Positions 10,597 through 17,522 of a stretch of 42,506 bases of DNA are shown piece by piece. The DNA is from Bifidobacterium breve (lineage in GTDB: Bacteria > Acidobacteriota > Vicinamibacteria > Vicinamibacterales > CAVVIG01): contig CALQBJ020000005.1 in assembly GCA_943328785.2 (NCBI GenBank), forward strand, positions 1 through 42,506, in the 5' to 3' direction. The translations under genes and the position numbers were made by a program. How positions within the stretch are numbered: the stretch's first letter is position 1; every line of letters begins with the position of its first letter. A model generated the notes under the pieces. It did no database searches. It saw only the letters and a list, made by a program, of their open reading frames with translations, and was not told where the DNA came from.

Positions 10597-12605
10597 TCAG
10601 CACGTACGACGCCGCCCTGCGCGATGCGCTGCACCGCGTCTGGGGATTCTCGGACTTCAGGCCGTTGCAGCGCGAAGCCATGCACGCCGTGCTGGAAGGA
10701 CGCGACAGCCTTGTCGTGCTGCCGACCGGCGGCGGCAAGTCGCTGTGCTTCCAGGCGCCGGCGCTGGTGATGGATCATGCCGCGGCAGGTGCGGCTGACG
10801 CCGACCTCGCGTCTGGTCCGGCTGAAGCCGGACACTACGCGGAGAGCGCGCCTGACCTGATCACCGTCGACGACGAGAGCCTGGGCTACGACGTCGACTT
10901 CGATGCGTTACCCGCCGCAGATGTCTCCCGTAGTGTCCGGCGTCAGCCGGACCGGGGCCGTCAGGGTTTCGCCGTCGTCGTGTCACCGCTCATCTCGTTG
11001 ATGAAGGATCAGGTCGACGGCCTGCGCGTCGATGGCGTCGAGGCGTGGTATCTCAACAGTACCCAGACCTCGGCCGAGCGCGACGAGGTCTTCGCCAGCC
11101 TGAAGGCCGATCGCTGCCGCCTCCTCTACGTCTCGCCCGAGCGGCTCGTGGGCGAGGGGAGTCAGGGCTTCCGCCGCATGCTGGCGAAGTGGGGCGTGCG
11201 GTTCGTCGCCGTCGACGAAGCGCACTGCATCAGCCAGTGGGGGCACGACTTCCGGCCGGAGTACCGGCAACTGGGGCGGCTGCGCGAAGACTTTCCTGGC
11301 GCGTCGTTCCACTGCTTCACCGCCACGGCCACCGAGCGCGTCCGGCACGACATCCTCACCGAACTCCGGCTGAACGATCCGCTCGTGCTCGTCGGCTCGT
11401 TCGACCGGCCGAACCTGGTCTACCGCGTCCTTCGCCGCGGCACGCTGAAGAAGCAGCTCAAGGTCATCCTGTCGCGGCACGACGGCGAGTCGGGCATCGT
11501 CTACTGCGGTTCGCGCCGCGAGGTGGAGGAACTGGCCGAGTGGCTGCGCGGCGAAGGGCACGAAGCGCTGCCGTATCACGCCGGCCTGTCCGACGCCATG
11601 CGTGCGAAGCACCAGGAAGCGTTCCTGCAGGAGCGCGCCGACATCATCGTCGCGACGGTGGCGTTCGGCATGGGCATCGACCGCTCGAACGTGCGCTTCG
11701 TCATTCATGCAAGCGCCCCGCGCTCGCCCGAGCACTACCAGCAGGAGGCCGGCCGCGCCGGCCGCGACGGCCTGGCGGCGGAGTGTGTGCTCATCTACTC
11801 CGGCGCCGACTTCGTGCGCTGGCGGCAGATGCTCGAGCAGAACGGCGAGTTCACCGACAGCGCGCGTGGCCTGCTGCGGGACATGGAGCGCTATGCCGCG
11901 GGCACGCACTGCCGCCACCGTTCGCTCGTCGAATACTTCGGCCAAGCCTGGACACGTCAGGAGTGCGGCGCCTGCGACTGGTGCCTGAAGGAACTGGACG
12001 CGGTCGACGACTCGACGACGGTCGCCCGCAAGGTGCTGTCGTGCGTGGCGCGCGTGAGCCAGCGCTACGGACTCGCCCACGTCGCCGATGTGCTGCTCGG
12101 CAAGGCGAACGAGAAGGTGGTGGCCTACGGTCATGCCGAGCTGTCCACCTTCGGCCTGCTGAAACACGAAACGCCGGCGGCGGTGCGCGGCTACATCGAA
12201 CAGCTCGTGGCCGGCGGCTGGCTGGCCCGCGAAGGGGAGCCGTACCCGATTCTGAAACTCACGGCGCAGGGCGCGGTGCTGCTGAAGGGTGACGGCACGT
12301 GCGCGCTGTTCCGCGAGCAGGTCCCGGTGAAGGGCAAGAGCCGGACGCGCGGGGCAGGTGCCGCCAGCTTCGGCGGCGACCCGAATCTGTTCGACAAGCT
12401 GCGCGAGGTGCGCACGCGCATCGCGCGCGAACGCGGCGTGCCGCCGTACGTCATCTTCCACGACACCACGCTGCAGCAGATGGCCGAACGCCGGCCGTCC
12501 ACGGTCGACGACCTGCGCGACATCTACGGTGTCGGCACGAAGAAAGCCGCCGACTTCGGCGACGAGTTCCTCGACGCCATCAGAACGTTCCACCGGCCGG
12601 AATAG
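10596..12605 (+). CDS. recQ: ATP-dependent DNA helicase RecQ with an in-frame repeat-derived insertion and a non-canonical start
   Basis: RecQ unwinds DNA 3' to 5' in recombination and fork repair. The conserved motif 0 (FSDFRPLQREA) is encoded at about 10647-10679, upstream of the first TTG (10665) and ATG (10680). No ATG, GTG or TTG precedes it in frame, so those cannot be the true start. The best candidate is ATC at 10596, overlapping the ispG stop as TAATC, six bases after GAGGAA. From there: Walker A LPTGGGKS at residues 42-49, an extra segment at about residues 63-123 not found in ordinary RecQ, then VVVSPLISLMKDQ, DEAH (VAVDEAHCISQWGHDF), the GRAGRDG motif VI, a Cys4 zinc site (HCRHR..CGACDWC), winged helix and a C-terminal HRDC domain. 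The insertion carries two inverted copies of a palindromic repeat. CTG at 10617 is an alternative start. Confidence 0.93.
   Translation: MSTYDAALRDALHRVWGFSDFRPLQREAMHAVLEGRDSLVVLPTGGGKSLCFQAPALVMDHAAAGAADADLASGPAEAGHYAESAPDLITVDDESLGYDVDFDALPAADVSRSVRRQPDRGRQGFAVVVSPLISLMKDQVDGLRVDGVEAWYLNSTQTSAERDEVFASLKADRCRLLYVSPERLVGEGSQGFRRMLAKWGVRFVAVDEAHCISQWGHDFRPEYRQLGRLREDFPGASFHCFTATATERVRHDILTELRLNDPLVLVGSFDRPNLVYRVLRRGTLKKQLKVILSRHDGESGIVYCGSRREVEELAEWLRGEGHEALPYHAGLSDAMRAKHQEAFLQERADIIVATVAFGMGIDRSNVRFVIHASAPRSPEHYQQEAGRAGRDGLAAECVLIYSGADFVRWRQMLEQNGEFTDSARGLLRDMERYAAGTHCRHRSLVEYFGQAWTRQECGACDWCLKELDAVDDSTTVARKVLSCVARVSQRYGLAHVADVLLGKANEKVVAYGHAELSTFGLLKHETPAAVRGYIEQLVAGGWLAREGEPYPILKLTAQGAVLLKGDGTCALFREQVPVKGKSRTRGAGAASFGGDPNLFDKLREVRTRIARERGVPPYVIFHDTTLQQMAERRPSTVDDLRDIYGVGTKKAADFGDEFLDAIRTFHRPE
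10816..10838 (-). repeat. 23-bp palindromic repeat, copy A (inside recQ)
   Basis: Palindromic core of 8-bp arms around TC or GA, GTCCGGCT-GA-AGCCGGAC in plus reading at 10816-10833, followed by ACTAC. On the minus strand it is identical over 23 bases to the copy at 28970-28992. In recQ it is translated as SGPAEAGHY. Confidence 0.85.
10930..10952 (+). repeat. 23-bp palindromic repeat, copy B (inside recQ)
   Basis: GTAGT followed by GTCCGGCG-TC-AGCCGGAC. It differs from copies A and C at one position in 23 and is inverted relative to copy A, 91 bp away. The A-B pair spans 137 bp and fits a REP/BIME-like arrangement within the coding sequence. Confidence 0.82.
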
Positions 12606-12662: not shown

Positions 12663-13109
12663 ATGACCACGACACCGCCCCCGACCACGAGCCTGCCGCT
12701 GCCTTACGGCGCGCCGCTCACACTCGACGTCGCCAAGCGCATCATGGCCGCGGCCGAGCAGGAAGCCGCCGCCCACCACTGGCCGATGGCGATTGCCATC
12801 GTCGACAGCACCGCGCATCTGGTGATCTTCCAGCGCGCCGACAACACGCAACTCGGGAGCATGGACGTGTCGATCGCGAAGGCGATGACCGCCGTGAAGT
12901 TCCGCCGCGCCACGAAGATCTTCGAGGATGCAATGGCTGCTGGCGGCGCAGGCCTGCGCCTGTCGACCATGCCTGGCATGGCCGCGCTCGAAGGCGGCGT
13001 GCCGATTGTCGTGGGCGGCCAGGTGGTCGGCGCCATCGGCGTATCGGGCATGCTGTCCACCCAGGACGCGCAGGTGGCGGCCGCCGGACTCGCCGCGCTC
13101 AACGTCTGA
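12663..13109 (+). CDS. GlcG/HbpS-family (DUF336) haem-binding-like protein
   Basis: 148 residues from ATG at 12663. The sequence has the family layout: LTLDVAKRIMAAAEQEA helix, MAIAIVDSTAHLVIFQRAD strand pair, a conserved SIAKAMTAVKFRR helix, then LEGGVPIVVGGQVVGAIGVSGM and a final helix. No signal peptide is seen, so it is probably cytoplasmic. Relatives include GlcG of the glycolate locus and the haem-binding HbpS; the actual ligand here is unknown. No glycolate oxidase genes are nearby. It lies 57 bp after recQ with no clear terminator between, so read-through from recQ is possible. Confidence 0.85.
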   Translation: MTTTPPPTTSLPLPYGAPLTLDVAKRIMAAAEQEAAAHHWPMAIAIVDSTAHLVIFQRADNTQLGSMDVSIAKAMTAVKFRRATKIFEDAMAAGGAGLRLSTMPGMAALEGGVPIVVGGQVVGAIGVSGMLSTQDAQVAAAGLAALNV

Positions 13110-13163
13110 GCACCGAGGGCGGGGACCGATGGCGAACGAACCTGAGCCCGGCCAGCCCGGTGC

Positions 13164-13200
13164 TGCCGGCCGTGCCACCCAGGGTGTGGCACGGCCGGCA
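13164..13200. terminator. Strong hairpin between convergent genes (candidate bidirectional terminator)
   Basis: Perfect 15-bp arms TGCCGGCCGTGCCAC (13164-13178) and its reverse complement (13186-13200), with a 7-nt loop CCAGGGT. It lies between the GlcG-like gene (plus) and the amidase (minus). No T-tract follows on either strand, so it may be a transcript-end stabiliser or a protein site instead of a classic intrinsic terminator. Confidence 0.55.
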
Positions 13201-13457
13201 GAACCTGTCGAACGACGTCTCGATGTTCGTGAACATGTTCGATCGGCCCGATGCCGATGACGATCCCGACGAGTGGCGGTTCCCGGCCGACACCCCGGAA
13301 CATCCCATTCCGCTTCAGCTGATCCGTTTGTCCTGACGCTCTGGACGGCCGACCTCGCTGTCGCCGCACTCGCTGGACGATCTGCGCGCCGTGAGAGACG
13401 TGCTCGAACGCGCGCAGCTCTTCGCCGGCATCAACCCCGTGCCCCGAACCGTTCGCC
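13184..13457 (+). other. Region without a recognised gene; possible coding remnant
   Basis: The 348 bp between the GlcG-like stop (13109) and the amidase stop (13458) contain no gene I recognise. One plus frame reads protein-like on both sides of an in-frame TGA at 13334-13336: MFDRPDADDDPDEWRFPA before it and LDDLRAVRDVLERAQLFAGI after it. There is no ribosome-binding site before the possible starts at 13184 (GTG) or 13223 (ATG). A decayed gene is the simplest reading, at low confidence. Confidence 0.25.
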
Positions 13458-15047
13458 CTACCTGGCGATGAGCGACGGCGTCGTCTTCGGCGCACGCCTC
13501 GGAGCAACGAGCCGCTCGTAGGCGTAGGCCACCTTCAACAGCGTCGGTTCACTCCACGGCTGTCCCAGCAGTTCCATGCCGATGGGGAGCCCGTCAGTGG
13601 TGAAGCCCGCAGGCATGCTCAGCGCCGGATAGCCGGTCGTTGCGCTCAACTGACAGTTCGAGCCCCCCTGCGGTTGCCCAATCAACGCCGGCTTGCGGCG
13701 CAGTGTGGGATAGACGAATGCGGTGATGTTCTGGCGGCGCATCTGCGTCGCCACCGCGTCGCGTACATCATCGCGCCTGGCGAGTGTGGCCGTGTAGGCG
13801 GCCGAATGGCGCTCCGTCACCTGGTCGGCGCGCTTCAACACGCTCTCGACGGCCGGATGATACTTCCCGCCCGACAGGATCTCGGTGAGCGAATGGACCG
13901 GGGCGGAGGGATAGGCTGACAGGAAGTCGAGCAGGTCGAACTTGAACTCGGCGTTGATGACGCTGGTGTTCTGCAGCAGTTCTTCGAGATCCGGGAACGG
14001 CACCTCGACGATGCCGGCGCCGAGCGAGCGCAGATCCTCGAGCGCCGTGCGGACGATGCGCGCCGCCTCTTCGTCTTCTGGCGCGGTGCCGAAGAGCGGC
14101 GTCAGCACGCCGATGGTGACGTCGCCAAGACTGGCGTCTCCCACACTGCCGTTGTAGCTGCGCGGAATGTGTTCGGCGCTCGCGCTCGTCGTGGAATCTG
14201 CCGGATCGACCCCGACGGTGTAGTCGAGCATCAGGTAGAGGTCGGTGACCGTGCGCGCCAGTGGCCCGCCAATATCCTGCGTATGCGCGAGCGGCACGAT
14301 GCCGCTGCGGCTCGACAGCCCCGCCGTGCCGCGCAGCCCGAACAGGTTGTTCTCCGAGGCCGGATTGCGGATGGAGCCGCAGGTGTCGGTGCCCATGCCC
14401 GCCGCGGCGAAGCTCGCCGCAACCGCGGCCGCCGTGCCGCCACTCGAGCCGCCCGGGTTACGCGTCGGGTCGTACGGATTGCGCGTCTGGCCGCCAGCGG
14501 AGCTGATGGACGTGATGCCGTAGGCGAGTTCGTGCAGGTTCGTCTTGCCGATGATGACCGCGCCCGCGTCCTTCAACCGCTTCACCATGAAGGCGTCGCG
14601 TCCGGTCTGGAAGCCGGCCAGCGCCGACGAGCCCGCTGTGGTCGGCATGTCCTCCGTGGCGTAGTTGTCCTTCACCACGATCGGAATGCCGTGCAGCGGC
14701 CCGCGCACGCGTCCGGCACGCCGTTCGGCGTCGAGCGCCGCGGCCTCGTCGAGCGCCCGCGGGTTGAGCGTGATGATGGCGTTCAGCTTCGGACCGTCCT
14801 GGTCGTACGCACGAATGCGATCGAGGTACTTCTGCACGAGGTCGCGCGACGTGACCGTGCCGATGCGCTGCGCGGCCAGCAGGTCGACGATGCTCTTCTC
14901 GAACACGTCGAAGGTGGCGGTTGGCGCCGCGGCCGGCAGCGGCGCCAGCGCACCGAACGGCTGCTGCGGCGCCTGCGCCGAGAGGCCGATGGCCGCTGCC
15001 AGTGCAGCTCCGGTCACTGCCCATGCGGTCCTGTTCCTGAACGTCAC
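13458..15047 (-). CDS. Secreted amidase (amidase signature family)
   Basis: 529 residues from GTG at 15047; the start is supported by AAGGAGGG three bases upstream. Residues 1-25 are a signal peptide ([16 protein letters not shown]), which is unusual for GatA-like enzymes and places this one in the periplasm. The amidase-signature triad is visible: Lys in [10 protein letters not shown] (near residue 124), the cis-Ser in [14 protein letters not shown], and the nucleophilic Ser in [10 protein letters not shown]. The family hydrolyses carboxamides. The lack of GatB/GatC neighbours and the export signal argue against a role in tRNA amidation. Substrate unknown. It diverges from purT. Confidence 0.93.
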
Positions 15048-15159
15048 ACGCCCTCCTTTGTCTTCGTCGCAGTCCGACGCGAATTCTCGCGGACGGGTCC
15101 GTGCATGCCGGCCGGCCGCTGCCTGCCCGAAGTGTATGCTGTCCGCGGAGAGTCATCAG

Positions 15160-16341
15160 ATGAGTCGCATCGGTACGCCGCTGTCGCCCACCGCCCTTCG
15201 CGTGATGTTCCTCGGTGGAGGAGAGCTCGGCAAGGAAGTGGTGATCGAGCTGCAGCGGCTCGGGGTCGAGACGATCGTGGTCGATCGCTACCCGCATGCA
15301 CCGGCACACCAGGTGGCGCATCGCTCGTATGTCATCGATATGACCGATGCCGCCGCACTGCGTGCGCTGGTCGAGCGGGAACGGCCGCACCTGCTGGTGC
15401 CCGAGATCGAGGCCATTGCCACCGACGAACTCGTGCGGATCGAGGCGGCCGGCCTGACGCGCGTCATTCCCACCGCATTCGCGGCGCACACCACGATGAA
15501 CCGCGAGCGCATTCGCCGGATGGCGGCCGAAGAGCTGCAGCTCCCGACGTCGCCCTACGCATTTGCGTCGTCGCTCGAGGAACTGCGCGGCGCGGTCGGG
15601 AAGATCGGGTACCCGTGTTTCGTGAAGCCGGTCATGTCCTCATCCGGGAAAGGGCAGAGCCGGCTGACGGGACCAGACGACGTCGAGCGCGCGTGGGCGT
15701 ACGCGCTGTCCGGTGGACGCGTGAAGCAACCGCGCGTCATCGTCGAGGGGCAGGTGTCGTTCGATTTCGAAGTGACCCTGCTCACCGTGCGCGCGGGCAG
15801 CACGCATTTCTGCGAGCCGATCGGGCACGTGCAGGTGGACGGCGACTACGTGGAGAGCTGGCAGCCGCAGGCGATGAGTGCGCCGGCGCTGGCGCGGGCG
15901 CAGGAGATTGCCGGTGCCGTGACGTCGGCACTCGGCGGTGTGGGCATCTTCGGCGTCGAGTTGTTCGTATCGGGCGATGAGGTCTGGTTCTCGGAGGTGT
16001 CGCCGCGTCCGCACGACACCGGGCTCGTGACGCTGGTCTCGCAGGTGCAGAGCGAGTTCGCGCTGCACGCGCGGGCCATTCTCGGCCTGCCCGTCGACAC
16101 GTCGCTGCGCGCGCCCGGCGCGAGCGCCGTCATCTACGGCGGACTCGACGCGACAGCCATTGTGTTCGACGGCGTCGCCGACGCCCTGGCCGTGCCGCAG
16201 ACCGAGGTGCGCCTGTTTGGCAAGCCCGAGAGTTTCCGGACGCGCCGCATGGGGGTGGCGCTGGCGCGCGGCGCCGATACCGGCGAAGCGCGGGCGCGGG
16301 CGAAGCAGGCCGCGTCGCTCGTGATCCCCCGGTTCGACTAA
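15160..16341 (+). CDS. purT: Formate-dependent phosphoribosylglycinamide formyltransferase PurT
   Basis: 393 residues from ATG at 15160, close to the 392 of the E. coli enzyme. It makes formyl-GAR from GAR, formate and ATP in purine synthesis. The N-terminal Rossmann-like part has [21 protein letters not shown]. The ATP-grasp domain has [17 protein letters not shown] (ATP-binding Lys and glycine loop), [17 protein letters not shown], and metal-ligand acids in [25 protein letters not shown]. The residue pattern is that of PurT, not PurK (NPRPHNS-type in PurK). No other purine gene is adjacent. It converges on the Cys-rich gene with only 22 bp between stops. Confidence 0.96.
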
Positions 16342-16363: not shown

Positions 16364-16834
16364 CTACTTGGCGTCCGCCGTGTGGCCGGCGTGCGGGTCG
16401 GCGGCGTCGCCGGCCTTCATGTTCGCGCAGCAACCACCGGCCGCCTTGTCGTCCGCCTTCGCGGTCGCGCCGTGGCTCATGCCGGCACAGCAGCCTGCGG
16501 CGGCCGCGCCGTCGGCCTTCGCTGCGGCTCCGTGGTTCATGCCGGCGCAGCATCCGGCGCCGTGGTCCATCGGCTTCGCTTCGGCCTTCGCCGCGGGCGC
16601 CGCCTGGTGCTCGGCGTGATCGGCTGCGGCCCCAGCCTTGGCCGCCATGGTGCCGCAACAGCCGCCCCCGGCCGCGTGATTCACCGCGTCAGTGCCGGTT
16701 TTTCCGCAGCAGGCGCTGGTTGGTGCTGACGCCGACGTCTCGGCGGGTTGCTGCGCGCCGAGCGTGGCCGACGCGAGTACAAGAACTGCGGTAGCAACAA
16801 ATACGGGCACTGAGAGGTAGGAAAGGCGACGCAT
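16364..16834 (-). CDS. Secreted Cys/Met/His-rich low-complexity protein, putative metal binder
   Basis: 156 residues from ATG at 16834, with GGAGGG six bases upstream; a longer reading from 16861 lacks a signal peptide start. Residues 1-27 are a signal peptide (FVATAVLVLASATLGAQ). The mature part is Ala/Gly/Lys-rich and contains five CC units: ACCGKT, GCCGTM, GCCAGM, GCCAGM and GCCANM, alternating with Met/His pieces MDHGAG, MNHGAA, MSHGAT and a C-terminal HAGH. Paired Cys with nearby Met and His are typical ligands for soft metals such as copper(I). I do not recognise a named family. A periplasmic copper or silver buffer, or a cross-linked structural protein, is inference only. No metal exporter or sensor is adjacent. 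Confidence 0.8.
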   Translation of the reverse strand: MRRLSYLSVPVFVATAVLVLASATLGAQQPAETSASAPTSACCGKTGTDAVNHAAGGGCCGTMAAKAGAAADHAEHQAAPAAKAEAKPMDHGAGCCAGMNHGAAAKADGAAAAGCCAGMSHGATAKADDKAAGGCCANMKAGDAADPHAGHTADAK

Positions 16835-16965
16835 GGATCCCTCCTTGTAGAACACGGACAAGAGCCGTTGGGGAACGGTTCTGCATCATGTACGCCAGAG
16901 TGTTGGGCGGCGTCAGGCTCGGGTGGAGGGCGTCGCTGCCGCCCTTCAGGGCGGCGAGATCGGGT

Positions 16966-17385
16966 CTAGTGGACCGTGTAGGGTTCGTGCAGGGCGAAGT
17001 GCGCGATCTCGACGTCGAAGGGTTCGCCGCCTTCGGTCCCCATCGAGTAGGTGCCGCGCATGACACCGGTCGACGTTTTGAGCGCGCAGCCCGACGTGTA
17101 CGTGAACGACTCGCCTGGCGTCAGCACCGGCTGCTCACCGACCACGCCCGGACCACGCACCTCTTCGGTGTGCCCGGTGGCGTCGGTGATGACCCAGTGA
17201 CGGCTCAGCAACTGCACGGTGTCGTCACCCTCGTTGGTGATCTTGATCGTGTAGTGGAAGAACCAGTGGCTCTGGAACGGCTGGGAGTGGCCCGGCGCGT
17301 AGTGGGATTCCACTTCGACACGCACGTTGTTCGTGACCGCTTCCGACGACGAGACGTGCATCGGTTGATTCTTGATATGTGGCAT
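16966..17385 (-). CDS. apaG: ApaG domain protein
   Basis: 139 residues from ATG at 17385; TTG at 17394 and ATG at 17361 are alternatives, and none has a clear ribosome-binding site. The fibronectin-III-like ApaG fold is recognised from HWFFHYTIKITNEG, then SRHWVITDATGHTEEVRGPGVVGEQPVLTPGE, FTYTSGCALKTSTGVMRGTY and a final FDVEIAHFALHEP. ApaG is linked to cobalt/magnesium efflux phenotypes in enterobacteria, but its biochemical role is unsettled. It is not next to apaH or ksgA here. The start lies 137 bp from the divergent LolA-like gene. Confidence 0.94.
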   Translation of the reverse strand: MPHIKNQPMHVSSSEAVTNNVRVEVESHYAPGHSQPFQSHWFFHYTIKITNEGDDTVQLLSRHWVITDATGHTEEVRGPGVVGEQPVLTPGESFTYTSGCALKTSTGVMRGTYSMGTEGGEPFDVEIAHFALHEPYTVH

Positions 17386-17522
17386 CGGGGGCAAGCGCGC
17401 GCCGCGCGTTAGATTTACATAGTAGCAGTGTTCAGCTGGCGGCCGCGTGTGCGCCGCCGATCAGCGCCGAGGAACTTCATGGTTTTGGAGTGCGTCTGAT
17501 AGGGTCAAACGGTCGCCACCAT

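Follow-up and report, generated by a model that had tools for sequence, protein, structure and literature searches.

A putative exported soft-metal trap with paired cysteines beside apaG, probably the remaining linker of a longer protein whose C-terminal domain is found in metal-resistance neighbourhoods

The DNA analysed here, a stretch of 42,506 nucleotides (contig CALQBJ020000005.1, hereafter the window), carries a small gene directly beside apaG whose product contains five cysteine pairs and several methionine/histidine boxes. The frame of this CC gene starts with an ATG at 16834 and ends with the last base of its stop codon at 16364, exactly as given in the original prediction; its strand is minus. 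The features of the gene and its surroundings are as follows.

16364-16834, minus strand: gene for the CC/Met/His protein, 156 aa, with an ortholog at the same place in a sister species
16840-16846, minus strand: AAGGAGG ribosome-binding site, 5 nt ahead of the ATG, read from the sequence
16754-16834, minus strand: signal-peptide-like N-terminus, residues 1-27, by inspection and by alignment with the sister protein
16706-16711, minus strand: CC pair 1, residues 42-43, in ACCGK
16655-16660, minus strand: CC pair 2, residues 59-60, in GCCGTM
16559-16570, minus strand: MDHG box, residues 89-92
16547-16552, minus strand: CC pair 3, residues 95-96, in GCCAGM
16529-16540, minus strand: MNHG box, residues 99-102
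16487-16492, minus strand: CC pair 4, residues 115-116, in GCCAGM
16469-16480, minus strand: MSHG box, residues 119-122
16427-16432, minus strand: CC pair 5, residues 135-136, in GCCANM
16425-16552, minus strand: 60-nt tandem duplication bearing two CC/MxHG units (2.1 copies, 77% matches)
16966-17394, minus strand: apaG, the upstream neighbour and synteny anchor of the locus comparison
12663-16341, no strand assigned: block of HbpS-like (12663-13109), amidase (13458-15047) and PurT (15160-16341) genes, lacking tblastn matches at the loci of relatives

The ribosome-binding motif AAGGAGG also precedes the ATG of the ortholog in the sister species (genome G001). GC content at the three codon positions (0.71/0.65/0.80) is compatible with coding in a high-GC genome, if not striking, and the gene is single-copy in its own genome. 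A simple promoter scan gave no promoter-like site, the hairpin just past the stop codon is no better than those of shuffled sequences (z -1.26), and an Rfam search returned no match.

Read by inspection, the N-terminus of the protein has a basic start followed by a hydrophobic stretch and the residues ASATLGA-QQ, a pattern suggestive of export. The remainder from residue 29 on (128 residues) is dominated by Ala (43) and Gly (19) and contains, besides other residues, ten Cys, eight His and five Met. All ten cysteines sit in the five CC pairs, four of which have the form CCxxM (CCGTM, CCAGM, CCAGM and CCANM) while the first, CCGK, is without Met; the three MxHG boxes are accompanied by one HAEH and one HAGH. 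Among 200,000 permutations of the residues past position 28, none reached five CC pairs, none reached four CCxxM units, and a single one reached three MxHG boxes. Part of this regularity is explained by the tandem duplication, from which units 3 and 4 arose (they agree at 19 of 25 residues); the units can therefore not all be counted as independent. The description from which we started, five CC units alternating with Met/His boxes, is thus borne out by motif counts and shuffles, and that of a secreted, flexible chain with repeated ligands holds at the sequence level, export being read from the N-terminus.

The protein could not be assigned to a named family, and none had been recognised in the original prediction. 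It had no match in Pfam at E values up to 10, and hence contains no Csp or metallothionein domain; the single NCBIfam hit (E 1.6) carries no meaning, and the PDB sequences gave none at E up to 1. Homology to a structural cell-wall protein, named beforehand as evidence contrary to a metal role, did not appear, there being no structural-family match in Pfam or NCBIfam. A search of plasmids with the protein gave no match, and no account of a comparable protein turned up in the papers of one open-access library. When the whole protein was searched against 60 relatives (E up to 0.1), matches occurred in 29 genomes, and the convincing one outside its own genome was that in G001, the sole other genome of the genus. 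The other matches were rejected as matches of composition. A scan of 31 loci for frames with at least three CC pairs gave no further candidate: apart from the window gene and the G001 gene, it returned arginine-rich-looking or out-of-phase frames.

A check for GCCxxM repeats, proposed with the original prediction, was carried out as a DNA pattern (GCC[AG]xxM occurring twice). It was found in 2 of 193 genomes of the class, those of the window and G001, and in none of the 193 when read backwards as a control; since the pattern requires TGC TGC in the first unit, relatives with TGT at this position are missed. The same scan of the genomes of 84,980 species, a collection which may omit the window's own genome, returned 21 stretches, in six of which the two units lie in different reading frames. 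Once these 21 were translated and read, exported-looking proteins with the motif were seen in G001 (L066) and in Gallionella (L075) only. The match in JAFDVO010000035.1 (‘Acidobacteria bacterium isolate SZAS-18’) is the same protein as that of G001. The Gallionella protein (L075:4749-5345, 198 aa) combines GGCCGGM with KHGG/QHGG repeats, and its gene lies between a DsbB-like gene, named by reading, and a ribonucleotide-reductase-like gene, with an isc-type cluster adjoining. It may represent an independent, convergent case of the same design.

The ortholog in G001 is diverged. It matches the window protein in two pieces (44% and 53% identity), and BLASTP aligns the two, with gaps, at 38% identity over 176 columns (E 9e-16). 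From its ATG the G001 protein has 331 aa and consists of a signal-like start, a longer linker and a C-terminal domain of 125 aa (hereafter the C-domain) that is absent from the window protein. Its linker carries CTCC and three CC pairs, fewer than in the window protein, together with several MxH and HxxH motifs. The linker part of the window protein is therefore orthologous, at the same place beside apaG, to a member of the C-domain family, while by domain content the window protein does not belong to that family, whose alignment has invariant columns that include F8, R16, P22, G24, H43, H103 and G114. Within the window, tblastn with the C-domain gave a chance match of 13 aa elsewhere only; in its own genome the best match had an E value of 0.4, and a profile search found none at 1e-5.

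The surroundings of the gene were compared across 20 loci around apaG, comprising G001 and 19 stretches from the family. RecQ and ApaG are both present in 13 of these. In eight of them the two genes are no more than about 110 bases apart, and in four they are separated by 238 to 1718 bases, a gap that holds unrelated frames in three cases and a run of N in the fourth. In G001 the CC gene is situated between RecQ and ApaG, and it adjoins apaG in both species. Within 1500 bases on either side of apaG, the CC gene was found in G000 and G001 only, and similar genes were sought in five longer ApaG-adjacent gaps of other genera with no result. The RecQ frame of the window remains open upstream of its first ATG/GTG/TTG (10630-10665) and encodes RecQ-like residues there, as in G001.

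Relatives show the order IspG-RecQ-ApaG without the block, which separates RecQ from the CC gene in the window alone. With tblastn at a threshold of 1e-6, its HbpS-like, amidase and PurT genes all remain without a match in the 20 loci; the closest amidase of G001 is on another contig and is 76% identical. The end of the CC gene is 22 bases from the stop of PurT, that is, the block begins where the C-domain would follow. The short form of the gene may be an artefact of misassembly, but both flanks of the block are collinear with relatives, and two false joins would therefore be required. With two species compared, the simplest history is an arrival of the block coupled with loss of the C-domain in the window lineage; the alternative is that the C-domain was gained in G001. 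According to the former, the ancestor would have possessed a metal-ligand linker and a C-terminal domain, as is still the case beside apaG in the sister species, and the linker would have retained its ligands when the domain was lost at the site where the block arrived. The window gene is probably such a linker, left after domain loss.

A gene truncated in this way could be a relic, the disordered linker of a longer protein whose working part is gone and which is now drifting. The C-domain is indeed absent just where the gene borders on a block that does not belong to this site in relatives, and the dN/dS of the CC gene on aligned codons (dN 0.41, dS 0.88, ratio ~0.47) exceeds that of apaG (0.12 and 0.78, ~0.15) and of the next gene (0.24 and 1.00, 0.24). 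This ratio is still below 1, although it mixes the time before and after the loss. Cys, Met and His residues past residue 28 are identical to those of G001 at 15 of 19 aligned positions, compared with 41 of 92 for other residues (Fisher p 0.01); as the gapped protein alignment favours matches, this figure and the dN/dS both flatter the CC gene. The frame is intact and preceded by a good ribosome-binding site, and the CC/M/H units have been kept and even duplicated. We regard mere drift as unlikely.

Indirect information on the possible role of the protein comes from the C-domain that the ortholog carries.

L032:8624-8998, strand not given: C-domain in G001 (further members in L087-L097 and L106-L112)

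The domain appears to be unnamed: nine aligned members gave no Pfam or NCBIfam match at E values up to 0.01, and their profile found no PDB chain better than E 0.33. A search of phages with the C-domain gave none, and an AlphaFold2 model of a single C-domain sequence (mean pLDDT 50.5) was too poor for use. Members were found in 11 plasmid records from Aminobacter, Mycolicibacterium, Mycobacterium, Neotabrizicola, Acidithiobacillus and Acidiphilium, many of the proteins having Met- or His-rich tails. In ten of the 11 records, which amount to about nine independent cases, an annotated metal-resistance or regulator gene lies within 6 kb of the C-domain. Two near-identical loci have merA together with ArsR and an RND pump, one has ars genes, two have a cadmium transporter with ArsR, four have heavy-metal or copper P-type ATPases (two of these four loci being near-identical), and one has CopY-like and ArsR genes with a cation transporter; regulators beside these genes include CsoR/CopY. 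In the eleventh record, from Aminobacter, the neighbours are a two-component system and a protein of the Spy/CpxP type, and it was left out of the metal count. Metal genes were seen in none of 12 control segments (four 37-kb stretches, located elsewhere on four of the plasmids; Fisher p 1e-5), the control plasmids being all mycobacterial and the segments not independent of each other.

Within the class, eight of the 193 genomes contain the C-domain, which in most cases follows a stretch rich in His and Met. In G088 a CC pair and a Met/His linker stand ahead of the C-domain; the gene directly precedes one for an outer-membrane efflux protein, and an RND permease gene follows ~1.2 kb beyond, with a CusA/CzcA model below its cut-off. 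Immediately after the C-domain gene of G011 comes one of the MerR type; it is best fitted by models of metal sensors, each scoring below its cut-off. The neighbours of the other members in the class, as far as read, include no clear metal gene. Two variants of architecture may be mentioned: G022 (L111:5880-7031) has an extra His/Met-rich N-terminal domain fused to the C-domain, and in G011 a similar N-terminal domain is found on a methyltransferase-like part (L106:8335-9507), two genes downstream of the C-domain gene.

Several known systems resemble the window protein in part. Passages of the literature describe SilE as disordered when free, folding on Ag+ and binding up to eight Ag+ (PMC5008109), and PcoE as a proposed first-line copper sponge (PMC7558416). 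Like these, the window protein would be short, exported and equipped with Met and His as ligands, its export being read by inspection. SilE and PcoE are characterised by His and Met in the passages concerned, whereas the window protein adds five CC pairs and is Ala/Gly-rich; no family model gives a meaningful match to it (Pfam and NCBIfam, E up to 10), and in place of sil, pco or cus genes its neighbours are apaG, PurT, amidase and RecQ. Storage proteins of the Csp1 type are likewise exported, thiol-rich and devoted to Cu(I), and bacterial metallothioneins such as MymT are short chains with many Cys, to go by excerpts of PMC7558416. The Csp proteins are Tat-exported four-helix bundles, unlike CC pairs in an Ala/Gly chain, and the metallothioneins differ from the window protein, which has a signal-like start and MxHG boxes; as noted above, neither domain is present. 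In MerE a cysteine pair again forms a soft-metal site, but the protein has no match to that of the window. MerT also uses a cysteine pair as a soft-metal site, and both MerE and MerT are membrane transport proteins, unlike the window protein.

CC and Met together make up a ligand set for soft metals, and their repetition along an unfolded, exported chain points to a sponge for several ions, like SilE. We favour this interpretation and give a probability of roughly 55% to an exported, likely floppy soft-metal sponge or trap that descended by loss of the C-domain; as the best reading, it would resemble SilE and PcoE in its working, with cysteine pairs added. The chain would be exported by the Sec route and stay mostly unfolded. 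Each CCxxM unit, with two thiolates and a thioether, and each MxHG box would take one soft, thiophilic ion such as Cu(I) or Ag(I), so that a single chain could hold several ions away from targets in the envelope until efflux or dilution. The presence of the gene in two species only and the lack of the metal-associated C-domain in the window copy argue against such a trap, as do the smaller number of CC pairs in the sister protein, the negative promoter scan and, a ZIP-type transporter gene ~5 kb away excepted, the lack of neighbouring metal genes in the window. Buffering of copper(I) or silver had been proposed originally, and the link to metals is indirectly supported by the metal-resistance neighbourhoods of the ortholog's C-domain; a specificity for Cu/Ag is not, as the neighbours there concern Hg, As, Cd and Cu. 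Copper-type P-ATPase matches in the genome carry little weight, as they occur in 14 of 14 control genomes as well. A more specific version, in which the rearrangement freed the linker, the CCxxM/MxHG unit was then duplicated, and the product became a free-standing sponge for Cu(I), Ag(I), Hg(II) or As(III), is put forward tentatively, as something possible that we would not count on.

The same cysteines could instead act without any metal, as interchain disulfides of an envelope protein or as a thiol redox buffer. Every Cys is paired, export is apparent, the genome encodes a VKOR-type disulfide-forming protein (above the family cut-off), and the look-alike gene in Gallionella adjoins the DsbB-like gene. 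Disulfide chemistry has no need, however, of the xxM that follows four of the five CC pairs or of the interleaved MxHG boxes, and the C-domain of the ortholog is tied to metal islands; together with the missing structural-family match, this makes a purely disulfide-based role rather improbable. A histidine-led trap whose target is Zn(II) or some other borderline metal, and in which the CC pairs play a minor part, is highly doubtful: the eight His past residue 28 would suit it, as would a ZIP-type transporter gene ~5 kb away, the only metal gene near the CC gene in the window, but this gene is a usual neighbour of apaG in relatives without the CC gene, and CC with Met points to softer metals.

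For a soft-metal trap, the VKOR-type enzyme implies that the CC thiols may be oxidised outside the cytoplasm; hypothetically, metal binding could compete with this oxidation or reverse it. If the protein does bind metal, the question arises how paired thiols remain functional beyond the cytoplasm, and a design based on cysteine pairs would join the exported sponges known mainly for Met and His. Beyond the window, an unnamed domain of ~125 aa, carried by exported Met/His-rich proteins, accompanies mer, ars, cadmium and copper genes on plasmids in at least two phyla.
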